A DNA stretch of 64,000 nucleotides from Tubulanus polymorphus (taxonomy: Eukaryota; Nemertea; Palaeonemertea; Tubulaniformes; Tubulanidae): assembly GCF_964204645.1 (NCBI RefSeq), contig NC_134026.1, positions 20,602,650 through 20,666,649 on the forward strand, written 5' to 3'. How positions within the stretch are numbered: position 1 is the stretch's first letter; the number at the start of each line of letters is the position of its first letter. The position numbers were made by a program, and so were the translations under genes. The notes under the pieces were generated by a model. The model saw nothing but the letters and a program-made list of their open reading frames with translations. It had not been told where the DNA came from and did not search any database. Positions 1 to 22,389 of this stretch are shown in pieces.

Positions 1-1786
1 CGGCTTTGTTTAACCTGACATCTATTTCTGGAACAAGTGCCAAAATTACCAGACTATGATATTTTTAACGGACTGACTTACAACGATCAATTATATTAAG
101 GCCGGCCTTGCGTGCATCTCGCTAAAATTTACCTTGTGGATGGTTGAATTATAGATTTTGACATAATCTATGAAAGAACAGCGCCTTCTTGGAGATGTCT
201 TTTTCTCGAATCGTATTTATGTGTGTATATTAATTATTTGTTATTAGAGAGAATAAAGCATTCATTCATTCCTTCAGCCTTAGTCAGAACGTGGACGACA
301 GAAGATAAACGTAAATACAAACTTGGAGAATATACGTAGGTTTACAAGTACATGTAAATAGTGTGTATTTCTCTCAGAACAGGAAGATCGCTATCAGAGA
401 TATCTAGACCGATATATTCCAGTGGTTAGAAGTGGTTATATCCACTCCATTGTGGCTGAAAAAATATGGAAACACGTAAAATATTAAGGTTGGAATATAC
501 ATTTTAGAACACCCGAACAACCAGGATACATCTACTGGATATTCACAGTACGATTTTAGGTACTGTTCCCTCAAGTGAAAAAGACTAGTTAAGAAAAATC
601 TCCCTAGTCATGTGGATGCCAAAAAGAAATGATATTGCATTTCCTTGATAGGGTCGCTTGCGATTTGTTTTTTTTTTCGTGTCAGTAGTTATGGATTCGG
701 AACCAATTTTCACCGCTTTGCTTGTGGTCTAATCTTACCGGGATCCCATTCCTGGCGCGTTTGGGTTGCAGGTTCAGTGTTATCACCGACTACAAAACTG
801 GTAGAAGCGAATGTTGCAATCGCCAAAGCAAGCAACAAAACTATAGACAAAGATAATCGTACATGTCATTGTATATGGTTTTCTCCTTGCTTTGAGCTGG
901 GTGGTTACTACGAAACAGTGCAGGCGCAAAATATCAATTGAGAAACAGATGATCGAGACTCGGCCTACCGTTTCGAACGAGCAAGTTGATAACTGTCATC
1001 TTCGTTCAACGTGATAACGCTTTGCAGAGGTCCCGCGCCACCGCGACACGTTTTCGCAACGCAGCCTGATACCGGCTAGCATGTGTATTGGCGTAATTTT
1101 TCCCATCACGGCAGTCAATCATTGACTAGAGGGATGGGGCATTTCAGTAATGATTGAAGTTCGAGCAAATCAGTGCACGTCGGGTGCAAGGGCTAACTGA
1201 AGTTGGTAATGGTTGATAATTGTTCTTAATCACTCTCTTCGCTTATCTCATCCTCATTATTTTTCATCATCTTTTCTATTCTTTTCTTGCTTTTTCTCTC
1301 CGTCTCCTTTTTTGATTTTCAAGGGTGCTTGCTATAGCGGCCTTATGGCCTTTGCTTGGCCCTCATAGGAAAGCCTTCTTAATTTCATTTTTGTTCTATT
1401 TGTAAATATTCTCATAATATGCTTTCTTGTGAAATAAATTGAAATTGAAATTTTTACTGAATTTTCACTTTTTACTGAACTGCTTACAATTCGTCTGAAA
1501 TAACATGTCATAACACATAATAGAAGTTAAAAAAACGATATTTTTTAGAATTAGAAATTAACGTATTCTGTTATTTTTCGGCGGAATCGCCTCGTAGGAA
1601 AGTCAACCAATAACTTAAACGCGTTTGAACTTATTATTAATGAGGCCGAGGACGGTTTCAGAGAAACTTATCGTTCTCTCCCGCAACCTCTACGGCGGTA
1701 CTTACGAATGAAATGACACTCGAGCGTCGCAACGCGTCAATCGTTGGCATAGAATCACCGTCACCAGAAGCCGATGAGAAACAGTC
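1..1786. other. Non-coding 5' flank with a possible LINE 3' end
   Basis: I see no convincing coding exon here. About 1322-1454 reads like the 3' end of a non-LTR retrotransposon: a GGCCTTATGGCC-type stretch, an AATAAA, then a short repeated GAAATT tail. A second AATAAA followed by repeated CATT units lies near 251-277. Both assignments rest only on tail shape. The last 150 bases before position 1787 are the likely promoter and 5' UTR of the fibrinogen-like gene; an AACCAATA (CCAAT-like) string lies near 1605, but no clear TATA box is seen. Confidence 0.4.
1322..1454 (+). mobile_element. Probable 3' terminus of a non-LTR retrotransposon
   Basis: The stretch has a GC-richer body followed by AT-rich sequence, an AATAAA and a simple tail of GAAATT-like repeats, the usual look of a 5'-truncated LINE or LINE-dependent SINE 3' end. 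No reverse transcriptase sequence is present, so the family cannot be named. Confidence 0.35.
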
Positions 1787-4700
1787 ATGCTCCGTCTGGG
1801 TGTGAATTCGTGTCATTTTTTGGCCGTTCTAATTGCCGTGGTGGTCGGTCATTACAATATACCGCCTTTGGTATACGTTCCGTACAGAAGCGTTCCGGGC
1901 TGCGAATATAATTTCTCATTAGCAAGTGGCGTTGCGCTTATATTGAAGACGACCGCAGTCAACAGTGACCTCCAATGTGCTCGAATGTGCAAACGCACGG
2001 ACAACTGTTTTTCGTTCAGTTACGCGGACGAAGCGACCGTTAACTGCGAACTCTTAATGAATAATGGCACTGAAATTGATGATTGTTCGAAATTGGCTTT
2101 TCGACCGGGATGGAAGTTTCTTTTCATGGTGCGTACAACGTCTATTATCGTTACATTTTTTCTAATTTAATTTTTCTTTCCTACGTTTAGATCACATTAG
2201 ATTTAAAATTCAACCCGGCTTAACCCAGTCGTGCAAAATGTTGTCGTCTATCCATAAGAATACGAAGCTTTACCTGCATTCGAAAAATGTGTGTCGCGAA
2301 AAATTCACCTTGTGTGCGGCCTTCGAGAAATTATGAGAACGAATTTAATGGTTAGGAAAACAATTTCTTTAATTGTAGACGTTATCCTTAAGAATCGTAC
2401 GCCCAACTAGAAAATGCATTTTCAATCTTTCATGTTAACAAAGGGAGTCAACTGCGGTGCTATACGTTTTACAAATACAAGCGACCTTATGACGGCGTGG
2501 GAGACGTACCAAAGTTCATTTCTCATCACAAAAAGGCAGATTTACGCTCGAAATTCGTCCGGAGCTTCGGAGGTGACATGGTTAAAACGATATTATTTTC
2601 GCGGGAACGAAATAATCTTTTTCGTTCGAACGAAATGTTTTTCGTGGGAACAAAAAGTTTATCGTGGGAACGAAAAGCTTTTCGCGTGAACGACACAGAT
2701 TGTCATGTCTAATATATGAATTATTACTAGGTGTTTGCGTTGTGATATATATTCTGGTTTATAATTTCCGGTTTACTTCCGGTCATTGTTACAGAATTGC
2801 GCGTCAAGATAAGTTTGCGTGGTAACGATAAGTGAAGCCTAAGATCGTATACACCAAATCATCGTAGACACTCGGACATTAAAAGATAATCTGGGCCATT
2901 TAGGCGGGATTTCAGAAATAAATACATAATTCAATTCAATTAATCTTTATTGTCCCTTGAGTAATAATACAAGTCAGGTTGTTTAACAATAAAGATGAGA
3001 AAAAGTATGAAATACAATTTCTTTTAGAGATCATGATAAAAACGCGGTAAAGAGTATGAATAAACATAAAAAGATAACAATAGCAGTGGTTAACTATTTA
3101 CACACGTTTATGTTCTTCGAAGCCCTGTGTAAATGACAACCCAGCCGTAGTGCTCGGTTATTTTTACTCACATTTACCGACGAAGACCGTTTGCGTTCCT
3201 AAACTATATTTCGCAAACTTTACTGAATGGTCATCAATATTACTCTTTGTTTCATCAATTAAATTTTTCGCTCTGAACCTTACACATACTTCCAAAATGC
3301 ACCATCATTTCTTTGAAAATTCGATTTTCTTGTTTATTCTCATTTTCCGGCTAAGTAAATGAATCATATTATTGAAAGGCACGGGAAGGTTCACTATATC
3401 GGATTGCGTATGTCTTGTTTTGGATTTTGGAGGCGCCAAAACAAAATTTTCAAACACATCAAAACGCGCAGATAATTATGGCGAACTTTTCGTGCCTTTA
3501 AAATGGTGCGGATAAATATGGTTGGAAAGATGAAAAGAATAGATTAATGTCCCCAGGTCGTATGATCAGTTTACTTTCAATAGTTTACCTCATGCGGGAT
3601 AGATTTCCTTTTAATAAATTGATCAATTATGAATTCGGCATCGGGCTTTTGTAAGTATATGGAAGGGCCATTAGATGCTGGCTTTTGTCGAATGCTCTGG
3701 TACCGGTCGGTCAGATAGCTCCAAACCTCGTGTTAATCGCGCCGTAATGTTTATTGTTTGCAATCATGCAGTAACTGAATATCTTCATAGAGCATGAATT
3801 ATTGTACTCCGTGCCATAGGCAACTGTACGTGACGTCACAAAGTTCTGCAACTGTTAGTGAGATTGTCTGAAAGCTTTCATCGACAAAACTTTCATCATT
3901 TCATTGAGTCTTTTTTGTATCACGCCGTTTCAATTATTTTCTCAATTCAGTTCGATATATGCGCTAACGGAGGTCGCTTCAGTATAAAACAGCGCCGTTG
4001 TATTTGTGGACCACCCTGGATCGGAAGGTTGTGTGAGAAAAAAGCCCAAGGTAAAACGACTTAGTTGATTTACGCCGGTTAGCTGGGTAGCGAAACATTT
4101 CACCTGATATTAGTTATCGGAGGAAGGGCAAAAAAAGTTCACAACTTCAACTGTCGTACCTACCGATTGATCATAGGCCCGACTTAATAGAAATTTTCAG
4201 ATAACTTCTGAATAGTTAGAATTGCAAAATTAGAAATCACTGAGATGTTAAATCATGTTTATGTTTCATACCACGCCACTGCATTGATAGTATTCATTGA
4301 ATTGTATGATTAAGTCGAAATTTGAAAATGATTGTGAATCTGTATTTCAGGCTGTATTGATATTTATAACGAGCACGCTTCGCCTGATGGTTGGCAATGG
4401 GCCAAAATCCAGCCTCCGTCGAGCAGTTCACCCATAGAGGTGCTATGTTTGTTGGGACACAGACAGAGAGCTCATACCACAATACTGAAACGTACCGGAA
4501 CCATCCAAACACAATATTTCAACCGCTCTTGGGCCGAATACCGCGACGGATTTGAGGAAGATCCCGGCAATTTCTGGATCGGATTCGACAAACTTTCCGA
4601 AGTCATGTCCTACCAAACATCCGAGGGATATTCTTTGATGTTCGCGTTAACAGTCATTGGTCCGAACAATACGAGTCGGTCGACGCGAATAGACTTCGAG

Positions 4701-4994
4701 TCGTTCAACGTTTCCAGCGAAGAACAAAACTACACGATCAGCGTCAACGAAATCAGCGGTGATACCGGATTCTTCAATAGTTCGATTCTTCAGAACATCA
4801 ATGAAACTCTCAACGGAATGCCGTTTAGCACCTACGACCGCGCGAATGGCAACTTATCCAGCAACTGCGCTGCTGAATTCGGCGGCGGTTGGTGGTATAG
4901 CAAGAGCTGCGCAGATTTCCTTATCGTCACGGGTCGAAATGCATCCTTGTTTTCGCAACTTCTTTCTTCAGTCATCGTATTAATTTATAATTAA
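1787..4994 (+). CDS. Secreted PAN/apple-EGF-fibrinogen-like domain protein
   Basis: Proposed exons are 1787-2128, 3951-4050 and 4351-4994, with GT..AG borders and phases 0 and 1; together they give 361 aa. Residues 1-21 form a hydrophobic signal peptide. Residues 39-110 resemble a PAN/apple module (Cys 39, 64, 68, 74, 87, 100). Exon 2 encodes an EGF-like piece with four cysteines (CANGG ... CICGPPWIGRLC). Exon 3 encodes a fibrinogen-related domain: the CIDIYNEH start, FNRSWAEYRDGF, the NFWIGFDKL match to the usual EFWLG, FSTYDRANG, and NCAAEFGGGWWYSKSCADF. Many N-glycosylation sequons are present. The family usually continues about 40 residues past WWY with an NLNG motif; here it ends in a short hydrophobic tail, so the final lobe is missing or lies in an exon I did not find. 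Likely role: extracellular recognition or adhesion, inferred from domains only. Confidence 0.8.
2600..2692 (+). repeat. Short tandem repeat, about 21-23 bp unit, in intron 1
   Basis: Four to five imperfect copies of a unit like TTTTTCGTGGGAACGAAA lie in tandem inside intron 1 of the fibrinogen-like gene. The unit is itself partly palindromic (TTCG...CGAA). Confidence 0.7.
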
Positions 4995-6525
4995 CGCCCA
5001 TATTGTTTCATCACACCGGTTATTGTTATATACGCATATATTATGTTGCATTATGTATACATTCATTCCGCGGGCATTAGCATTACTCTGCACCCAACCG
5101 TTATAGAGGGAAACTAGTTTTGAGATTTAAATCTAGAACGCACAGAAACGTTGGCCATTTAATGGTAAACATTTTATTCTGAGATATTATCCCATTATTA
5201 ATTCTAAAATTCTGAAATCTTTCATTTTTAATGTTAAATATTACATTTCTCGTCATCAATTCAGGTTTCTTTTTTAGAATTTCATGGAAATATTGTGTTC
5301 TCGGAGTAAATTCGCAATACGTTTTATCCAATGGAAATGAACCCAGGACAGCATAATTTTCCATTGAATAAAAATTGAAAAATAAGTATTGGAATTGATT
5401 CTGATATTGTATCTCAGAGCAAAAATAACTTCGATTAAATCAAAAAGTTTGGCAATTTCATTTCGAGATATTATGTCAGAATTGATTCCGAAATATTTTT
5501 TTTTTATCTCGTCTGTAAGAACGTATACGGGCTAGTGAAAAATTCGGTTATGACCGAATTCATTATTTACCAACGAATTCATTCCGTACATTAACTGAAA
5601 ATACGAGATTGGTATATTATCCCTGGAGCCCGATCACGTACGCTGCAACCAACGCTGTTGTGGTGCGTGGATAGATTCGCCCCCGTCCCGTTTCACGGGG
5701 AATAATGAATCAAATAGAAATCATGTTTAAATGGATTAAAACACTGTGAAAAAAGAGGTTACTTAATGAATTTCCCGTGCAAACGAACAAATGATTTTTG
5801 TCTCTGCTGAATAAACTGATATAAAATAAAACAGCGATAAAACTGCATGGTACTCTCGAGGAAAGACCGTTGAGATGTCGTCAATAGATCTAGGGCCTAA
5901 CGTTATTTGAGGTGGATAATCATTCTAATTTGCATTTTTAAAAAACTACAGAAAAATGATAAACGCGCGGATGATAAAAAGAGTTTCGTTACAGGAAACA
6001 GGAAAAAGTTCCCAGGACACTCTCTTGCATCATCTCGAATCTCATATTCTTTTACAGTTTCCCAATTTTTCTACCGCAGACAAAGATACATGTACATACC
6101 AAGATTTAACTGGCCTCACTCAATTGAATTTATATGTACAATACTTATGAGTGAAAATGAATTTTCAGCTAAAATTTCTTCCTTCTTGACGTCTTAAGAC
6201 CACTTAGGGCCATTCCCTCTCCAGCGATATCCAGTGACATTTTAATGACTAATTCTTGCAATCGGAAAACATTCAATAATCAAATCAATGGTCGAAGTTA
6301 TGTAATACAATACATATTTCAATCAAGCGTGTCGAATTCTTGAAGCGTCGAGGTAAAGACAAGAAAAAAATTGCCCGATACTGAATTGTTACGTTTCTCG
6401 ATATAGTTTGAAACGACTGTACCACAATAAACATAATCTGTACTCCTCCAAAGAACTTGAATCAAGACAAATTCCGATTTTAACCGGGTCTATTCGATTT
6501 CACTTGAACGGAACGGATTCTAAAA
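4995..6525. other. Intergenic region between convergent genes
   Basis: This lies between the 3' ends of the fibrinogen-like gene (plus) and the hemopexin-only gene (minus). An AATAAA at 5367-5372 is a plausible polyadenylation signal for the upstream gene, giving a 3' UTR near 400 bases. Otherwise it is AT-rich sequence in which I see no exon. Confidence 0.5.
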
Positions 6526-8895
6526 TCAACAGCCCATCCATCTTTGATCCTTCATTATTGGGCCCACCATGGGCTCTCTGTTGGCACTTGTATAGTAGTA
6601 ACTTAAAAGAGAATAAACGAACACTCAGCATCGTTTAACCAAATATCGAGCTACATTTACTTCAAAACTGGTGACATCGAAAAACATCACCAGATAACGA
6701 ATTGTGGAAACTTAGCGAAATCAAAAACGTTATTTCAACGATTTTACGTGCGACGAATGTTTCGAAAGTTCTTTTGAGACATTGCTGTTTAAATGTCTGA
6801 ACTTTGTATTTGCAGAACCTTTCCTAATCTACATCAAAAGATACTTACTATTGACCTTGGAATAGATAATAAGCGTTGCCTCTGAACGCGGCCGCGTCAA
6901 TCCTACCGGGTGGCGCTTTGGGAAAAAAGCTGTTCAAATCGTACACCGTATTTCTCCTTGAACCCATGTTAATTTCGTCGAAGAACCAAATCTTGTTACC
7001 CTAGAATCGATTATCGAGAATTAAGAAAATACTGGAGTGATTTGAAGTGAAATTGTTTATCTATAATCATTTTTGAAACCCCGATTTTTTGTGTGATTTG
7101 GATCGTGAGATAATTGATTTCAGTTCACAAATGCCACCATTTCGAATCCAAGTTAAAGTCATGGTCTGAAAAGGGAAGCATCCCAACCTAACTTTGTTTC
7201 TTGTCACCTCTGAATAGCCTGTTCTCGTTTTCTTACCTCGATAATGTTCGTCCAGCCTCCGTTGTCCACAAAAGCGGCATCGGGGTATCGTGGATAGTCA
7301 CTCCTTCTCTGATAGTCTATCGGATAGCCCTCGTCTAGGTAGAATCTTCGTTCGGCCGTTTTATATTCGTATCGGAATAACTGGGTTCCTACGAAAAAAA
7401 AAACAGAATGTCCGTGAAACAAAAATATCTTCCTGTTTCAATGCTAACTTGTGCGCGCTAATTCTTAATTTTGAGCTGTTTTATTTGGTTTAGGTATATC
7501 CGAAGGTAAGTAATGTTCCAAAGTAAAGTCAAATTTATATTAATTGTATAGGTTAAATTTGTTGCATGAATGTAACTTTGTAGAGTTTGTAAGTTTGTAG
7601 TGTTCCTGGAGTATATGCTTGAAATTTCTGGTGTCGGAAAGTGAGATGAATCCCCCTTTGTCTAATAAATTCTCACAATTAGCCAATGATACATTTCAGG
7701 AAGGTATTCCAGTCACTATTTACATCTAATTCATTTAGCAAAATATTTACCATACTATTTATAGAGCCAACCAAGTGATTATAGTATCTAACAATATGTA
7801 CAAAATTTAAATGCATTAATATATAAAGGTAGTCTACCCAACTCGCCCAAAACCGCTAAGTTGATAAAAAATGATCATTGTACGCGCACGCAGTTTTACT
7901 TTGATTCGTTTTTTACTATGATATAATATATCATCGATTCTTGTGCTAATGATATCAGATTTTATACTTACCAGCGAATAAGTACACTTTTTTCGTTCGC
8001 GGGCTGTACGTGGCTGCGGTTATCACATTTCTCGGTTCCGGGAAGAACAGCGCGCTGATGACGGCCTGGCTATCTACACCACGCGTAGTCATGATGTACG
8101 CCTTGTAAGGAGTGAAAGCGTACGTCAACCCGTCCGGAGCTGTAACGAATTTTGAAAGCCGATTGTTTTCCCCGTCCAAAAGAGAACGTCGTGGTATGAA
8201 AACATCTCGATATAACTTACTGTTGATGATAGCCTCGTACGCGCCCCGGCATGGACCTGATGTCGGAGGGTGTGTTGGAGGTAGCATCGGTTGCCTCGCA
8301 ATAATGGGAACTGGTCTACCTTTTTCTAAGTATTCCTGAAATTGTATAGATTCAGGCGAACACATCTTTTCATAAAAGTTTTAGATAAATTGTTTAATGC
8401 GACCAGTCTATGGAATCCCCTTGCCCAGACGTGAACGGAATGCCCGTCAGTTCAATGTTTTGAAATCCGAGCTTGAAAACCTATAATTTAAATTGGCTTA
8501 TGTCTAAACAATTTCTTGATTGAGTTCAGTCTCTTACTTTCACATGTGATTAGAAACGTGAAGATAATTGTATTGTTTTACGCCATATATGTATAGATGT
8601 ATCATTATTACAAAAGGTTAGACAAATCGTAGAAATGCTCCAAAAATATTTCAATGCTAGCTTTAATAGCAGGATTTAATAGATGTTACCCGATTTTAAA
8701 TTCTCCAAATTGTCGATATAGGTCAATGGCATTCAGCCAGCAAATGGTCCAAATGTCGTGATAAAGATAAATATCATATTGCACGAAAATACCGAAGGAC
8801 TTACGTACATCTGGATTGACAGAGCGTTTCAAGAGACCGCTGGTCTCCAAACCCAAAAAGGCTATAGCCGCTACAGTTATTACGACAACATGCAT
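6526..8895 (-). CDS. Hemopexin-only MMP paralogue (no protease domain)
   Basis: Minus-strand exons: 8809-8895, 8221-8335, 7972-8139, 7237-7388, 6849-7000, 6526-6601. They sum to 750 nt, giving 249 aa. Exon 1 encodes a signal peptide (MHVVVITVAAIAFLGLETSG) and ends VNPD, like the full MMP next door. Exon 2 begins EYL, the first residues of the neighbour's prodomain exon, then runs straight into the hinge (EKGRPVP, Pro/Thr-rich, Cys58). Exons 3-6 encode four hemopexin blades, ending with the sealing cysteine (QRWMGC, Cys249). Exon lengths 168, 152 and 152 match the paralogue exactly. The cysteine switch and the zinc-binding HExxHxxGxxH are absent. Expected product: a secreted four-bladed propeller that might bind matrix or modulate MMPs (inference). 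Exon 1 needs the weaker donor GTACGT at 8808; the stronger GTAAGT four bases on would shift the frame. It could be a recent pseudogene, but no stop codon or other frameshift is seen. Confidence 0.82.
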
Positions 8896-10469
8896 GGCAA
8901 ACGACTGCGAGCAAAAAGCGCAACGTAACTGTTTCGAAAGTGTTTAAATAGGAGATATTAACTGATAGTAATTCCTCGGTGTTTGCTAACTTTTTTATAC
9001 GATTCGTAGATTAGGAACAAAGTTGTGTATTATATAATTCGCACCTGTAACTGAGAAAGCCCACATTTCGCAACGATTGATCATTTCAAATCATTTCAAA
9101 AATTAGCTTATGTCGAGAAATCCACTTCAATGCAAATAAACAGGATTTTCCCTGAATTTATGCACTTTCATGTGAACTTACGCTCGAATTTCCTGATTTA
9201 CTAAAGGATATAGACGATTTTGTAACGATCATTTTCGATATTTCTTTTTAAGATAAAATCCGCTGAACAGGATATGGATTGTTTGCGTGCTTATGTTATC
9301 AATCGAATTAGGGCTGCACACCTTCCCAAGGCCCATACAATGTAACAGCAATCTAGACACAATTTATTTTTTTCGAGTGTATATTCAGCGTGTGTGATTG
9401 TGTCTTGTCTGTGGACGACTAAGTCAGCGTATTGCCTGTCTGTACTTTGATAAAATGTCCTATAGTCTACCGTCAAATTGTGTAAGTGTAATGTCGAATA
9501 GTGTTTCATCGGCTTTTTGACACTACGCGGTGATACTATACGGAATTATACGGAAGCATATTTTTAAACGGAAAGAAATAGGCTGGTTGTCGGTCTTTAT
9601 TTTCAATAAGAGAATGGTCTAATTAGAGACAGCATACTGCCTCATATGACCCTTTACCTTTTGTTCATTTGTCGATAGTTTGACTGGCGCACTTGGTGTG
9701 AACACTTGCAGTGTTCCAGAACTAATTCAAGAGCCAGATTTGTTTCAAGTGCAACTGCGTTTGACTGTATTTGACCTGTAACTAGAATCGGTATTCATAC
9801 AGCTATAGTAATAACTGAACTGGTTCTACTGGTTAATTTGATAGTTCTACTGGTTGATGTACTATTTCTAGTGGTTGATGTACTAGTTCTAGTGGTTCAT
9901 GTACTAGTTCTAATGGTTGATCTACTAGTCCTAGCGGTTCGTGTACTAGTTTTAGTGGTTGATCGACTAGTTCTAGACTTATCAACCACTAGAACTAGTA
10001 GATCAGCCATTAGTCTAGTGATTAATCCATTAGTTCAGGTTGATAAGTCTAGTCTCTGACAGATTTATCAGTTTTAACGTCCTGTTGACGCGTTCCTTTT
10101 TACCGCGATATCATCGAGGTTTTAGAAACTTTAGCCTGAGTTTCATCGTCGCTAGATAGATGCATTAATCCGAAAAAAACAACTACGTATCACAAAAAGT
10201 TCATAATTCTGAAAATGTATTTTGTTTTACAGTTTTTGTGTTTAATGTATATACCAGTTTTTGTGTTTTATGTATATTCTGGTGTCTTCCGTACTTATCG
10301 CTTCCGTACGTGTGTAAAAGGTCTAACTGTGATATGATACAGCGACGTAGTTTTACCAGTCATATCAGCATCAAATATCGACAATAAACAGTTTTTTTTT
10401 CATTTCTAGTCATAATTTGCAAAGGTTTGCGTGATTCTGCTAAGCGTAAAACCCGCTGCAGCTATATTT
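8896..10469. other. Intergenic; contains upstream sequence shared by both MMP copies
   Basis: No gene is seen. About 9250-9540 is clearly similar to 16310-16540 (shared strings such as ACAGGATATGGATTGTTTGCG), and each lies upstream of one of the two minus-strand MMP genes, so it marks the duplicated unit. The rest is AT-rich apart from the minisatellite listed separately. Confidence 0.6.
9821..10052 (+). repeat. 21-bp minisatellite followed by a foldback end
   Basis: From 9821 to about 9977 there are seven to eight tandem copies of a 21-base unit close to TAGTTCTAGTGGTTGATGTAC. It is followed by inverted copies (CACTAGAACTAGTAGATC), and the terminal stretch is bounded by AGACTTATCAACC (9974-9986) and GGTTGATAAGTCT (10038-10050). 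Because 21 is divisible by three, the array stays open in one frame and encodes a repetitive Val/Leu string; this is a by-product of the repeat. Confidence 0.85.
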
Positions 10470-10662
10470 AATTGTAGCCGAGTACTGAAAAAGGACAATG
10501 ATTGATGGACGTGTAGACGACCTGAGCAAGGGGATGCCTATGGCCGACATTGATTTTCTGGATATAGCCATCGATGATACGCTGGTAATGCCGATAATGA
10601 CCACAATCATGGTTTCTTTGGCAATGATGAGTTCAGAGTTTGCCTGATGGCGGACATCTGAG
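10470..10662 (+). pseudogene. Decayed last-exon fragment of the EF-hand gene (copy A)
   Basis: The stretch aligns with the last exon of the intact EF-hand gene and with the 17.6 kb copy: KGMPMADIDFLDIAIDD is still readable (the intact copy has KGMTMADIDFLDISIDD). The conserved Trp codon has become TGA (10486-10488), and a deletion after IDDTL shifts the frame through the final calcium loop. No first or second exon is found nearby. This is a dead partial copy left by the tandem duplication. Confidence 0.85.
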
Positions 10663-11266
10663 CACTTTTCAAAAAAATGTTGAGTGAATATTGCTAAGGG
10701 TCCATAGAAAAATGTAGATGGTACTAGCCTAGATAAATCCCGTTTGCTTTAGCTTTTAAGACTTTACTTAGTATAAAAAAAAGTCTGAAACAAAAATATC
10801 TTTCGAAATAAAAGCTGCACTATACTGTTTCGGGTCATAATTAGTAGGGGTGCGAAGCATGGCGTGTATGAACATGGTATTAATTGGTCATACATTTTTT
10901 GCTTCTTTTTTCAAATTCCATTTATCAATTTCAGTAGAAAATGCACTTCTTTAATTCAAGATGATCGCACGTATAAAGGTCATTGAAGAAATCCAAAGAG
11001 TGCATTTTTTAACATTCGTTCGAGGGACGGTTTCCAGTATTCATTCAATGTATATGGATGAAAAAAATAGTGCAATAGTTGAAATATTACTATGTACTTT
11101 CCCCCTCTTTCTGCATTCAACACGAAATACAAATCACATATTGTTTGAAACGACAGTTGTATCACTATGAACATATTCTACACATTTCCAAAGAATTGAA
11201 TCAAGACAAATTCTGAATTGAATAGATTCGTTTTATCTATTTGATTAACCTCAACGGACTCTAAAA
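10663..11266. repeat. Duplicated flank: source of the inverted copy at 13.2 kb and paralogue of 18.0-18.25 kb
   Basis: The segment 10678-10872 is present again in inverted orientation at 13193-13387, almost base for base. The segment from about 10846 to 11050 matches 18025-18250 (shared GATCGCACGTATAAAGGTCA-type sequence and an upstream TTATCAATTTCAG), again downstream of an EF-hand copy. The part next to 11267 is the likely 3' UTR of the full-length MMP gene. No coding exon is supported. Confidence 0.75.
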
Positions 11267-15312
<4,046 letters not shown>

Positions 15313-17286: not shown

Positions 17287-17816
17287 ATGGCTGCTGCACG
17301 AGAGTTTGCTGAAAGACATCGTTGATAAGACGGAAAAATACATCGTCGATGACCTGGAACCCACTATCAGAAAGTACGATCATACAAAATTCGATAAACT
17401 TATTCTGCTGCTGTAAACGGCAGCATGGCACACGGAATTGGCTCACGGAATTGGCTCATCGCGTGTGCCTATGGTAATAATCGGGCTTCGTGATAGAAAA
17501 ATGCCTTTTGGCGACGTTTGGTTTAACGATTCAATCTCACGATAAGCACCGTCACAAATCTGAATCTTGAATTATGTTTATATACAGTTACATTGTAGCC
17601 GAGTACTGGATAAGGATAATAATTGAAGGCGGTGCAGATGATCCGAACAAGGGGATGACCATGGCCGATATCGATTTTCTGGGTACAGCCATCGACGATA
17701 TGCTGGTGAATAATATCGCAAATGCCCATAATGACCTCAATGGTTTCATTGACAAAAATGAGTTCAGAGTTTGCCTGTTGGTGGACATCAAGGCAGAAAA
17801 ATCCGGCTTTCTTTAG
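17287..17816 (+). pseudogene. EF-hand gene copy B, disrupted
   Basis: Positions 17287-17416 align with exon 1 of the intact gene: after ATGGCTGCT two bases are missing relative to it, and in the restored reading alignment LLKDIVDKTEKY and DDLEPTIRKYD are recognisable, but the first calcium loop is lost and a stop follows. No exon 2 was found. The last exon (17588-17816) keeps an AG acceptor and an open frame of 75 codons with KGMTMADIDFLGTAIDD and a final loop HNDLNGFIDKNE. The first calcium ligand of that loop is His instead of Asp, which should weaken binding. It is most likely a pseudogene; a truncated transcript from the last exon cannot be excluded. Confidence 0.8.
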
Positions 17817-19651: not shown

Positions 19652-22389
19652 ATGGTTGCTTCGCACGAGGATATGCTGAAAGAGGTCGTGGAAAAAACGA
19701 AGAAATACGATGTCGCTGACCTGGAGGCCAGCATACGAAAATACGACGCCACTTTTGCAAAAATCGACTCGGACAAGGATGGTTTCCTATGCAAAGATGA
19801 TTTAGTTAAGGCGGCAAAGGAGCTAGGGGAATTAGTCGACGAGTCAACTGTCGAGGTAAAAATTTAGTAGATGAACATAGATCATATGCAATTAAAAAGG
19901 GAACCAGAGAACAAGCTTATGAATACGAACTGTTTACTATCAATTCATTATTTTTCATTTTCCTGTAAAATTTCAGTTGGTTATTCTTTATTTTCCCATA
20001 AAATTTCAGGGCCTTATTCCAAATTCCAAAAGAAACGAGGGTGACTTTTTCTATTTCTTACACAAGATTCGTAGAGAAGCCGCGTTTACCGTGTGTAGAA
20101 TGAGCCAACGAGACGAGTAGTTCTATAAAGGTTAACTTAATAGGTTGACGCACGAGCTTTCGCTGCTAGCGTATAGAAGCTTCAATATATACACTTGCAG
20201 CGAAAGCTAGCGCGTCAGAAGATAGTTAACCTTTAAAGTACTACTCGTCTCGTTGTTAATGAAGCTTCTTCTATACACTAGCAGCGAAAGCTCGTGCGTC
20301 AGATAAGATAGTTAACCTTTAAACTGCTCATCTGCTGTTGAAGCTTATATACACTAGTAGCGAAAGCTCGTGCGTTAAACAAAATAGTTATTATTAAGTA
20401 CAACTGGTCTCGTTGTACACATCCATGTTTAAACAAGCATTTCTCATTTATATACGAGCATATATTTGCGAACACGGTTGAATTAGCGTCATATGTCTAT
20501 AGCGCTTTTGTATGGGGATTTCATTCAAAACATCAACCTTTTAACCTCAGACTCAGTCTGATTACTCCGAGCATTAACAGAACGTGGCGACAGAAGTTCA
20601 TTAACTATGAATTAATGTAGCAGATATATTGTAGATACCGTATTCGTTCAATACTGTATTATTTGCAGTTGTAGATATTATGTTTAAACTACCCAATTTG
20701 CATATTTAAATTATGCTTGAAGTTTGTCGAAATTTCTTAGATCTTATTCATATCTTGCACCCATTCTTTTGAAGATTCCTGTTGGCGTTATCTCCACCGA
20801 CACTTGGCCTTACCATTTTCTTTGATCGTTGCAGGGTGTTTACAAAAAATTCGATGTGAATGGTAGCGATACTATAACCCTACAAGAATTCTTAGAGGTC
20901 GCTGTTTTGTGAGTATTCTTCTAATAAGCCTGTTTACAGTTTCCAGGCGCCATTTTTGGGGTACCCGCCGGGTCTGTATTGTTGAACTTTTTGTCCCAAT
21001 TTTTCCCCGGTTTAATTTTTTTATTTCGTTCATATCTCTGGATTGGATGAAGATAGAAACAAATATCGATGGACTCAGCTGATAATGAAATTTTTTATGA
21101 TATCGCTCATTTATAAAGTTAATGCAACAATGCGCGCTGGTGAAGTTATAAACATTGATATCGTCTTTCCGATAATTCCACTTGAGTTATTGCTCATCCC
21201 ATTCAAAAGTTCGTAATCCTTACAAATTATAATCTACACTTTTGAAGTTGGTATGATCAATAGACATCTATGTGGTCTTATGTACATTTTAACGTTTTCA
21301 ATTATCTTTATTACTTTTTAAGTAAAAGATAAATATTGATTAACGACTTATTGTTACTCCTTTGATTCCTATATGATTTTACTGTTAGTTCTGTTCTGTT
21401 GGTTTCATGGTCTCCTATAACTTACGTTCCATTGTCTTAAGTGAAATCATCAAATCAATCATCCTCCCCAACAGGGATTCTAGCCTGATGGCATGGCTAC
21501 ACTCAGCCTCGGCACGAACCCCTGCCACACTAGACCGGGTGCGCAGGTACATGCGCAGCTTTGCCGCACGAAAACTTGCGGCACCAATCAGATTGCTCTT
21601 TGTATAATCGCTGAGAAAAGTTTCAAGGAAGAGCTATAAATGGGAAAACCCGGGCTAAAATTTCTGATTGGCTAATAATGACATCATCTAAGCTGCGCGT
21701 GTAGCTGCGCACTCGTTTTAGTATGGCAGGGTTTCGTACCGTGGCAATCTCGATGCCATCAGGTTCGAATCCCTGCCAGGGGACGATGCAAATTAATGCG
21801 TTCAGATCGCATACCGCCCAATCCTGACGGCTGTTAGACATGTGATTTATATATGCTTCATCGGTCGTCCTTTTCGAGCCTATCCCCTATTGATTTCAAA
21901 TTAAGATAGGTGCGCTATAAACCTGTTGCATATTGAAATTTGTGTTTTGAGTATGTATGAATAGTACCGTTAGCTTTATTTCAAAATTCTAACAATTACC
22001 TTTAACCAACAATAACGGAATGTCACTAGTCTAGTAAATTCCTTGACTACGTACCACGCGAAATGGCCCAGATCCTTAGTCCTAGCAGTTCGCGAGTTAA
22101 TAGAATATTCTACAATTATTCTTCCTTGCGTTACAGTAACGTTGTCGCTCGCTTCTGGAGGGAAACGATGTTTGAGGGAGTCGATGACCCAACCAAGGGG
22201 ATGACCATGGCTGACATTGACTTTTTGGATATATCAATCGACGATGCACTAGCGAAAGATATCGCTGAGGCGGATAAAGACAAAAACGGTTTCGTCGACT
22301 TTGAAGAATTCAAGGTTTATTTGTGGGCTGACGTCAAGGGAGTCTTCGGCAAAATTCAGTGGTTCAAGGATTTCTTATACATCCTATAG
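19652..22389 (+). CDS. EF-hand calcium-binding protein (sarcoplasmic calcium-binding-like)
   Basis: Exons 19652-19855, 20835-20908 and 22137-22389 join in phases 0 and 2 to 531 nt (176 aa). Canonical loops are DSDKDGFLCKDD (residues 39-50) and DKDKNGFVDFEE (139-150). A second loop, DVNGSDTITLQE (75-86), has Asp instead of the usual Gly at position 6. A third site near residues 109-120 (DDPTKGMTMADI) is degenerate and probably does not bind calcium. There is no signal peptide or membrane segment. Length and four-site layout fit invertebrate sarcoplasmic calcium-binding proteins acting as soluble calcium buffers, but I do not recognise a close named relative. An AATAAA at 22602-22607 is a likely polyadenylation signal. 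Two damaged relatives lie upstream (10.5 and 17.3 kb); this is the only intact copy. TATA box at 19568. Confidence 0.9.
20103..20420. repeat. Foldback repeat with extra tandem arms in EF-hand intron 1
   Basis: An arm containing CAACGAGACGAGTAGT, GGTTAAC and CACGAGCTTTCGCTGCTAG (from 20103) is followed by its reverse complement (to about 20255). Two further copies in the second orientation follow, with strings AGCGAAAGCTCGTGCGT and GATAGTTAACCTTTAAA. This looks like a foldback element that expanded on one side. Confidence 0.8.
21459..21788. mobile_element. Foldback element with tRNA-like ends, copy 1 (EF-hand intron 2)
   Basis: About 330 bases. The left end (ATCCTCC..CAGGGATTC) and right end (CAGGTTCGAATCCCTGCC...GACGATG) are inverted copies, as are inner blocks such as GTGCGCAGGTACATGCGCAGC and its partner. 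The right end contains GGTTCGAATCC, a perfect match to the RNA polymerase III B box of tRNA genes. It shares this layout with copies at 30.6 and 40.8 kb. No protein is encoded, so it is non-autonomous. Confidence 0.8.

Follow-up and report, generated by a model that had tools for sequence, protein, structure and literature searches.

We report that the minus strand of the window (the entire 64,000-nt stretch of Tubulanus polymorphus DNA analysed here) carries a short gene that is a diverged tandem copy of a neighbouring MMP gene, and that this copy has lost the propeptide and the protease with its reading frame still open. From its sequence, the short gene reads as a secreted hemopexin protein without a protease; we infer its expression, secretion and function. 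The explanation that we favour, with a probability of roughly 0.6, is a tandem duplication followed by deletion of the protease, leaving a secreted hemopexin propeller that binds partners of the neighbour MMP's hemopexin domain. According to this explanation, the duplication would have given rise to two MMP genes, and in the downstream copy a deletion would have brought the beginning of the prodomain exon up against the hinge exon. This would have removed the 231 codons that are missing from the short protein in comparison with the long one, namely the remainder of the propeptide and the entire protease. The phase-1 hinge exon would thereby have become a phase-0 exon, in frame after the signal-peptide exon, and the product would be a secreted hemopexin propeller devoid of protease.

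Table 1. Features discussed in the text (window positions unless given in Mb)
Feature	Position	Strand	Remarks
Short gene	6526..8895	-	six exons, 249 aa; signal peptide, hinge and hemopexin region
Short exon 1	8809..8895	-	signal peptide, MHVVVITVAAIAFLGLETSGLLKRSVNPD; differs from long exon 1 at 9 of 87 nt
Tandem donor GTACGTAAGT	8799..8808	-	4 bp longer than its long-gene counterpart
Short intron 1	8336..8808	-	5' part alignable with long intron 1
Fused exon 2	8221..8335	-	EYL (prodomain-like), hinge (EKGRPVP...) and start of hemopexin region with first cysteine
Alternative acceptor TTAG inside exon 2	8326..8329	-	with GTAAGT donor, in-frame 247 aa
Short intron 2	8140..8220	-	81 nt, open in frame
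Short exons 3-6	8139-7972, 7388-7237, 7000-6849, 6601-6526	-	remaining hemopexin region and closing cysteine
Long gene	11267..15312	-	intact MMP, 479 aa, 11 exons; PRCGMPD switch and zinc site
Long prodomain exon	14922..15007	-	opens GAATATCTA (EYL)
Long hinge exon	12722..12829	-	opens (G)ENGKPIP
Other hemopexin loci	C2:19.666-19.691 Mb (three copies); C4:21.917, C8:13.614, C9:12.104 and C2:2.212 Mb		

The spliced model of the short gene is open from ATG to TGA, with GT..AG at every modelled intron border (Table 1). Exons 1 and 2 are present as the first-pass annotation had described them (8895-8809 and 8335-8221) and are joined in frame in the model. A dispersed repeat occupies the middle of intron 1 (about 8391-8525); four further places in the genome match it at 74-78% identity. 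When the short protein was compared with Pfam, Hemopexin (E 1.2e-9) was the sole family above the cut-off among three listed at E up to 1, and no M10 or PG_binding match was obtained within that limit. A PDB sequence search returned entries of MMP-2, MMP-13, MMP-9 and MMP-12 (8 distinct sequences at E up to 0.001), the matches reaching at most residues 24-194 of the 194-aa hemopexin region. This region is colinear along its entire length with the 193-aa region of the long protein, and there is one extra codon at the start of exon 6 of the short gene. Since the two regions differ by only one residue in length, no blade has been lost relative to the long gene. This much stands of the earlier statement that four blades survive; Pfam itself scores two separate blade stretches in the short protein and two likewise in the long one. 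An MMP-type hemopexin domain has four blades closed by a cysteine pair; in the short protein the first cysteine of the region lies within GPCRG and the final residue is a cysteine, so that the two would form the putative closing pair. Retention of intron 2 (8140-8220) would add 27 residues to give a protein of 276 aa; its 81-nt counterpart in the long gene, by contrast, contains a stop.

The long gene lies upstream and the short gene downstream, in tandem on the same strand. The long protein matches PG_binding_1, Peptidase_M10 (E 8.7e-52) and Hemopexin in Pfam. The two genes align in four blocks that include exons, introns and both the 5' and the 3' flank, at 73-80% identity (E up to 1e-4). 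They thus possess the common exon borders and the alignable introns and flanks that characterize tandem paralogues. Mismatches amount to 128 of 738 nt in the exons and to 103 of 510 nt in introns 2, 4 and 5, which are about 80% identical; intron 3 was excluded from the divergence and indel counts because of its poor alignment (187 mismatches in 371 nt and a 208-nt gap). The paralogy to an MMP, the open frame, the signal peptide, the hemopexin region and both closing cysteines, all claimed in the first-pass annotation, are thus borne out by the frame and by the colinear alignment.

The M10 catalytic domain carries the motif HExxHxxGxxH, and the propeptide the switch PRCGxPD. The catalytic domain that defines the M10A group is present in the long gene and absent from the short one. 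The short gene also lacks the propeptide and the cysteine switch, with at most three prodomain codons (EYL) left. A tblastn search of positions 6000-9300 on either strand detected no remnant of propeptide or protease, its 13 weak alignments having a best E of 1.7. The loss of prodomain and protease, as first annotated, agrees with this result and with the Pfam result given above.

The frame of the short gene has been spared to a degree that is informative. Relative to the long gene, a single indel event (of 3 nt) is found in the 738 nt of exon, whereas the 510 nt of introns 2, 4 and 5 contain 11. Complete neutrality from the duplication onwards would predict about 3.1 stops and 5.9 frameshifts, with a joint probability of about 1.3e-4 that none arose. 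The calculation assigns half of the divergence of the pair to the short branch; it gives a probability of an intact frame of 0.010 when half of that branch was neutral, 0.16 when only the last fifth was, and 0.39 for the last tenth. The low probability of an unbroken neutral frame indicates that selection probably kept the frame over more than half of the short branch. Part of that selection may predate the deletion. The indel count therefore speaks for a long coding history and does not prove function of the hemopexin-only form.

The first-pass annotation had proposed dN/dS on the hemopexin exons as a check. The pairwise maximum-likelihood omega of short against long gene was 0.586 over the hinge and hemopexin region (216 codons; omega 1 rejected, P 0.02) and 0.593 from the first cysteine on (191 codons, P 0.04). 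These values come from our own fit; two other estimators differ for this pair (dN/dS 0.211/0.216 by YN00 in Biopython, 0.181/0.330 by NG86). On this pairwise side the check came out below 1, and on the short branch itself omega was not bounded below 1. As outgroup for the branch models we took an MMP at C2:19.6876-19.6913 Mb, of which ten exons were modelled, open and in the same exon phases, without the first exon. Over 213 codons, 87 residues are common to all three genes and a unique change is found at 12 in the short gene, 17 in the long gene and 58 in the outgroup, the 39 codons with a different residue in each gene being set aside. With the short-branch omega free (bound 20), lnL was -1958.20, compared with -1959.14 for omega 1, -1959.96 for short equal to long and -1961.79 for omega 0.3. 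In the free branch model, omega 1 on the short branch is thus not rejected (2dlnL 1.9) and omega 0.3 is disfavoured (2dlnL 7.2). A model of the short branch against the rest improved on a single ratio by 8.5 lnL (2dlnL 16.9), and within it omega 1 was worse than the bound by 2.3 lnL (2dlnL 4.5). The outgroup is saturated at synonymous sites: its branch is at the bound, and NG86 dS is 3.6 against the long gene and has no value against the short one. We therefore give little weight to the branch-model omegas. The short-branch value of 20, equal to the bound, we disbelieve, given this saturation and the disagreement with the residue counts (12 short, 17 long). The branch models lean to relaxation of the short branch rather than to constraint, and the codon models as a whole are compatible with recent neutrality of the short gene, which may or may not still be under selection.

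Protein and family searches of the genome gave hemopexin matches at no fewer than nine loci, the two window genes and seven others; such counts are lower bounds, since only the best candidates were scored. The list leans also on the protein searches, because the PF00045 genome search (4 matches among 16 candidates) missed both window genes. Among the matches listed, an M10 match lies within 4 kb at 8 of the 9 hemopexin loci. The closest of these M10 matches to the short gene belongs to the long gene; it lies about 5.4 kb away, on the far side of the hemopexin exons of the long gene itself. In the cluster near 19.67 Mb, the ten exons modelled for copy C are all open. Copy B shows no match to C before the middle of the exon with the cysteine switch, and 356 bp of its protease region are missing; elsewhere it is 97-99% identical to C. 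Copy A carries stops. Taken with the short gene, the deletion in copy B implies that protease sequence has been lost internally more than once in this MMP family, which fits both the birth of reduced genes and ordinary decay. The same cluster (C2:19.664-19.694 Mb) also holds stray fragments, including an inverted prodomain exon.

Judged by what would disable it, in frame or at splice sites, the short gene has a whole frame and an ambiguous first donor. The donor context is GAT followed by GTACGTAAGT, with a 4-bp insertion relative to the long gene and a competing GT that was absent from the earlier reading. In the U1 duplex, the in-frame first GT scores -0.9 kcal/mol, the weakest of the 24 donors in the three genes compared, whereas the GTAAGT 4 nt downstream scores -5.4 kcal/mol. 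A weight matrix built from the other 23 donors rates the two about equally (6.5 and 5.9). The donor of long intron 3, GTACGTGAGA (14684-14693), is likewise a tandem with 4-nt spacing, and the counterpart intron of copy C (I2) has GTACGTAAAC. Both were modelled on the first GT of GTACGT, which keeps the frame, with U1 values for first and second GT of -1.6 and -4.7 in long intron 3 and of -1.6 and -1.9 in I2. If these models are correct, the use of GTACGT in two intact relatives argues in favour of the in-frame first donor in the short gene. With the first donor ambiguous, splicing of the fused exon 2 as drawn (8809 to 8335) is a prediction from sequence.

The main rival to a hemopexin-only gene is recent silencing. 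It supposes that the gene was long functional, as a full MMP or in the hemopexin-only form, that either the deletion or the 4-bp donor insertion then caused it to be mis-spliced, and that stops have yet to gather. We regard this as possible, if on balance rather unlikely. The competition at the first donor (-0.9 against -5.4 kcal/mol) would be explained by it, yet long intron 3 and I2 of copy C are modelled on the first GT despite a second GT that pairs as well or better. A short-branch omega that is not bounded below 1, and intact-frame probabilities of 0.16 and 0.39 for neutrality over the last fifth or tenth, would also agree with silencing, while the residues conserved in the family are retained about as well as in the intact neighbour. 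Decaying relatives do exist in the family (copy A with its stops, copy B with its 5' loss and internal deletion), but in the short gene the frame, the other splice borders and both cysteines are intact.

Turning to the junction in exon 2, the exon reads GAATACTTA GAAAAAGGT, of which GAATACTTA encodes EYL. In the long gene, the prodomain exon starts with GAATATCTA and the hinge exon with GA GAAAACGGT. The EYL codons agree with the start of the prodomain exon at 7 of 9 bases (probability of at least 7 by chance, 0.0027), both mismatches being transitions. The rest of the exon agrees with the long hinge exon (12829-12722) at 80 of 106 bases, EKGRPVP corresponding to ENGKPIP. The common EYL start and its continuation into hinge-exon sequence, on which the first-pass annotation had built its case, are thus both found. 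When the last 60 nt of intron 1 are compared with the last 60 nt of the long intron 1, the best 16-base window matches at 14 of 16 bases, a value equalled by 1 of 2000 shuffle pairs. This ties the 3' end of the short intron to the stretch that precedes the prodomain acceptor in the neighbour. The earlier claim that this end was kept holds for the anchor and not for the whole, for in the long gene a further 14 bases separate the anchor from the acceptor. An origin of the 3' end from the hinge intron was not supported (best 12 of 16, equalled by 410 of 2000 shuffle pairs). The hinge exon, of phase 1 in the long gene, has become phase 0 in short exon 2, which suits exon 1. Resting on 7 of 9 bases, an origin of the EYL codons from the prodomain exon is likely, not certain. 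The junction is most simply explained by a deletion from prodomain exon to hinge exon together with a small intronic indel; the deletion may have been one clean exon-to-exon event.

A weaker alternative is that EYL does not stem from the prodomain: a single deletion would have begun inside intron 1 and ended at the hinge acceptor, with some 7 bases of filler DNA added. The CAGGA sequence would fit the hinge acceptor too, and the 14 extra bases of the neighbour would be accounted for. However, the prodomain exon has the same base at 5 of these 7 positions (P 0.023), and both mismatches are transitions; we regard filler DNA as an unlikely source. This alternative concerns the origin of the junction only and is compatible with our preferred explanation of the present gene.

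The second AG, that of TTAG, which the first-pass annotation had likewise not mentioned, lies 10 nt downstream of the first (CAG) acceptor. Combining the two donors with the two acceptors gives products of 249, 68, 36 and 247 aa, the GTAAGT donor with the first acceptor leading to a stop after 36 aa. The two matched pairs (249 and 247 aa) are the only ones that remain open. This pattern, together with the better U1 pairing of GTAAGT, would suit a compensation at two sites, in which the GTAC insertion and TTAG are used together, the EYL bases are spliced out and the protein reads DVQKGRPVP instead of DEYLEKGRPVP. Against such compensation count the two relatives modelled on GTACGT, whose donors have a comparable tandem arrangement, and the usual preference for a CAG/G acceptor over a TAG/A 10 nt on; we consider it improbable. 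Loss of protease exons from the short locus during assembly is very unlikely, since the window is free of N and sits on a 31.9-Mb contig (the genome, of 268 Mb in 77 contigs, has genes with introns), and since the frame is whole across the exon that contains the junction.

As for the role of a secreted hemopexin propeller, substrates, receptors and inhibitors are all bound by the hemopexin domain of MMPs. Among vertebrates, hemopexin, vitronectin and other proteins of this fold lack a protease, as the short protein would. They are old families with other architectures, whereas the short copy arose within one MMP pair. With archetypal secreted MMPs (M10A, such as the neighbour) the short gene has in common the signal peptide, the hinge, the hemopexin region and the exon borders; it differs from them in the absence of propeptide, cysteine switch, zinc site and protease domain.

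The closest likeness is with PEX, the free C-terminal hemopexin domain of MMP-2, which is, like the short protein, an MMP hemopexin domain without protease and is reported in PMC3260939 to keep MMP-2 off integrin alphaV-beta3. PEX is a breakdown product of a protease, whereas the short gene is a separate gene that encodes a signal peptide of its own. On the model of PEX, its product would most likely bind the partners of the neighbour's hemopexin domain, be they matrix, cell-surface receptors, inhibitors or the MMP itself. Binding of such partners could result in competition with the neighbour MMP or in a role as ligand, and the part of matrix ligand or decoy suggested in the first-pass annotation would be of this PEX-like kind. 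It is tempting to speculate, as a long shot, that the gene encodes a PEX that acts as decoy for its own neighbour, and that splice choice at intron 1, whose donors and acceptors match in frame in two pairings (249 and 247 aa), switches it on or off by frameshift.

Some echinoderm MMPs with hemopexin repeats are shortened on the N-terminal side like the short gene, only the propeptide being absent there according to PMC8467561. Lineage-specific MMP expansions are described for Osedax in PMC10192322. A limited literature search, in a field where wording varies and with most subscription papers outside its scope, found no hemopexin-only gene derived from an MMP. If expressed, the short gene would be a readable case of a protease gene turned into a non-cutting ligand by a frame-keeping deletion, and would test whether free hemopexin domains such as PEX merit genes of their own. 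The unreduced parent copy adjoins it, which makes direct comparison possible.

Several other features of the window were observed. The 880-nt intron of the long MMP gene contains a palindromic repeat element (13059-13533) with arms of 135 nt that are 99% complementary and surround an exact inverted copy (175 nt) of the intergenic DNA at 10675-10849. Nearly all of the 107 matches listed for it (best 40 of 911 candidates scored) fall on its ends, and it looks as if a foldback-type element had recently captured local DNA. Partial copies of the last exon of an EF-hand gene (about 19652-22389) are found at 10495-10578 (77%) and 17637-17796 (71%), one of them between the two MMP genes. Open stretches on the plus strand within 1784-4991 encode a PAN domain (1784-2128) and a fibrinogen C-terminal domain (4350-4991), which perhaps belong to one secreted-protein gene. 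Finally, a tandem array of 21/42-bp units with the consensus ACTAGTTCTACTGGTTGATGT occupies 9819-9976, upstream of the short gene.
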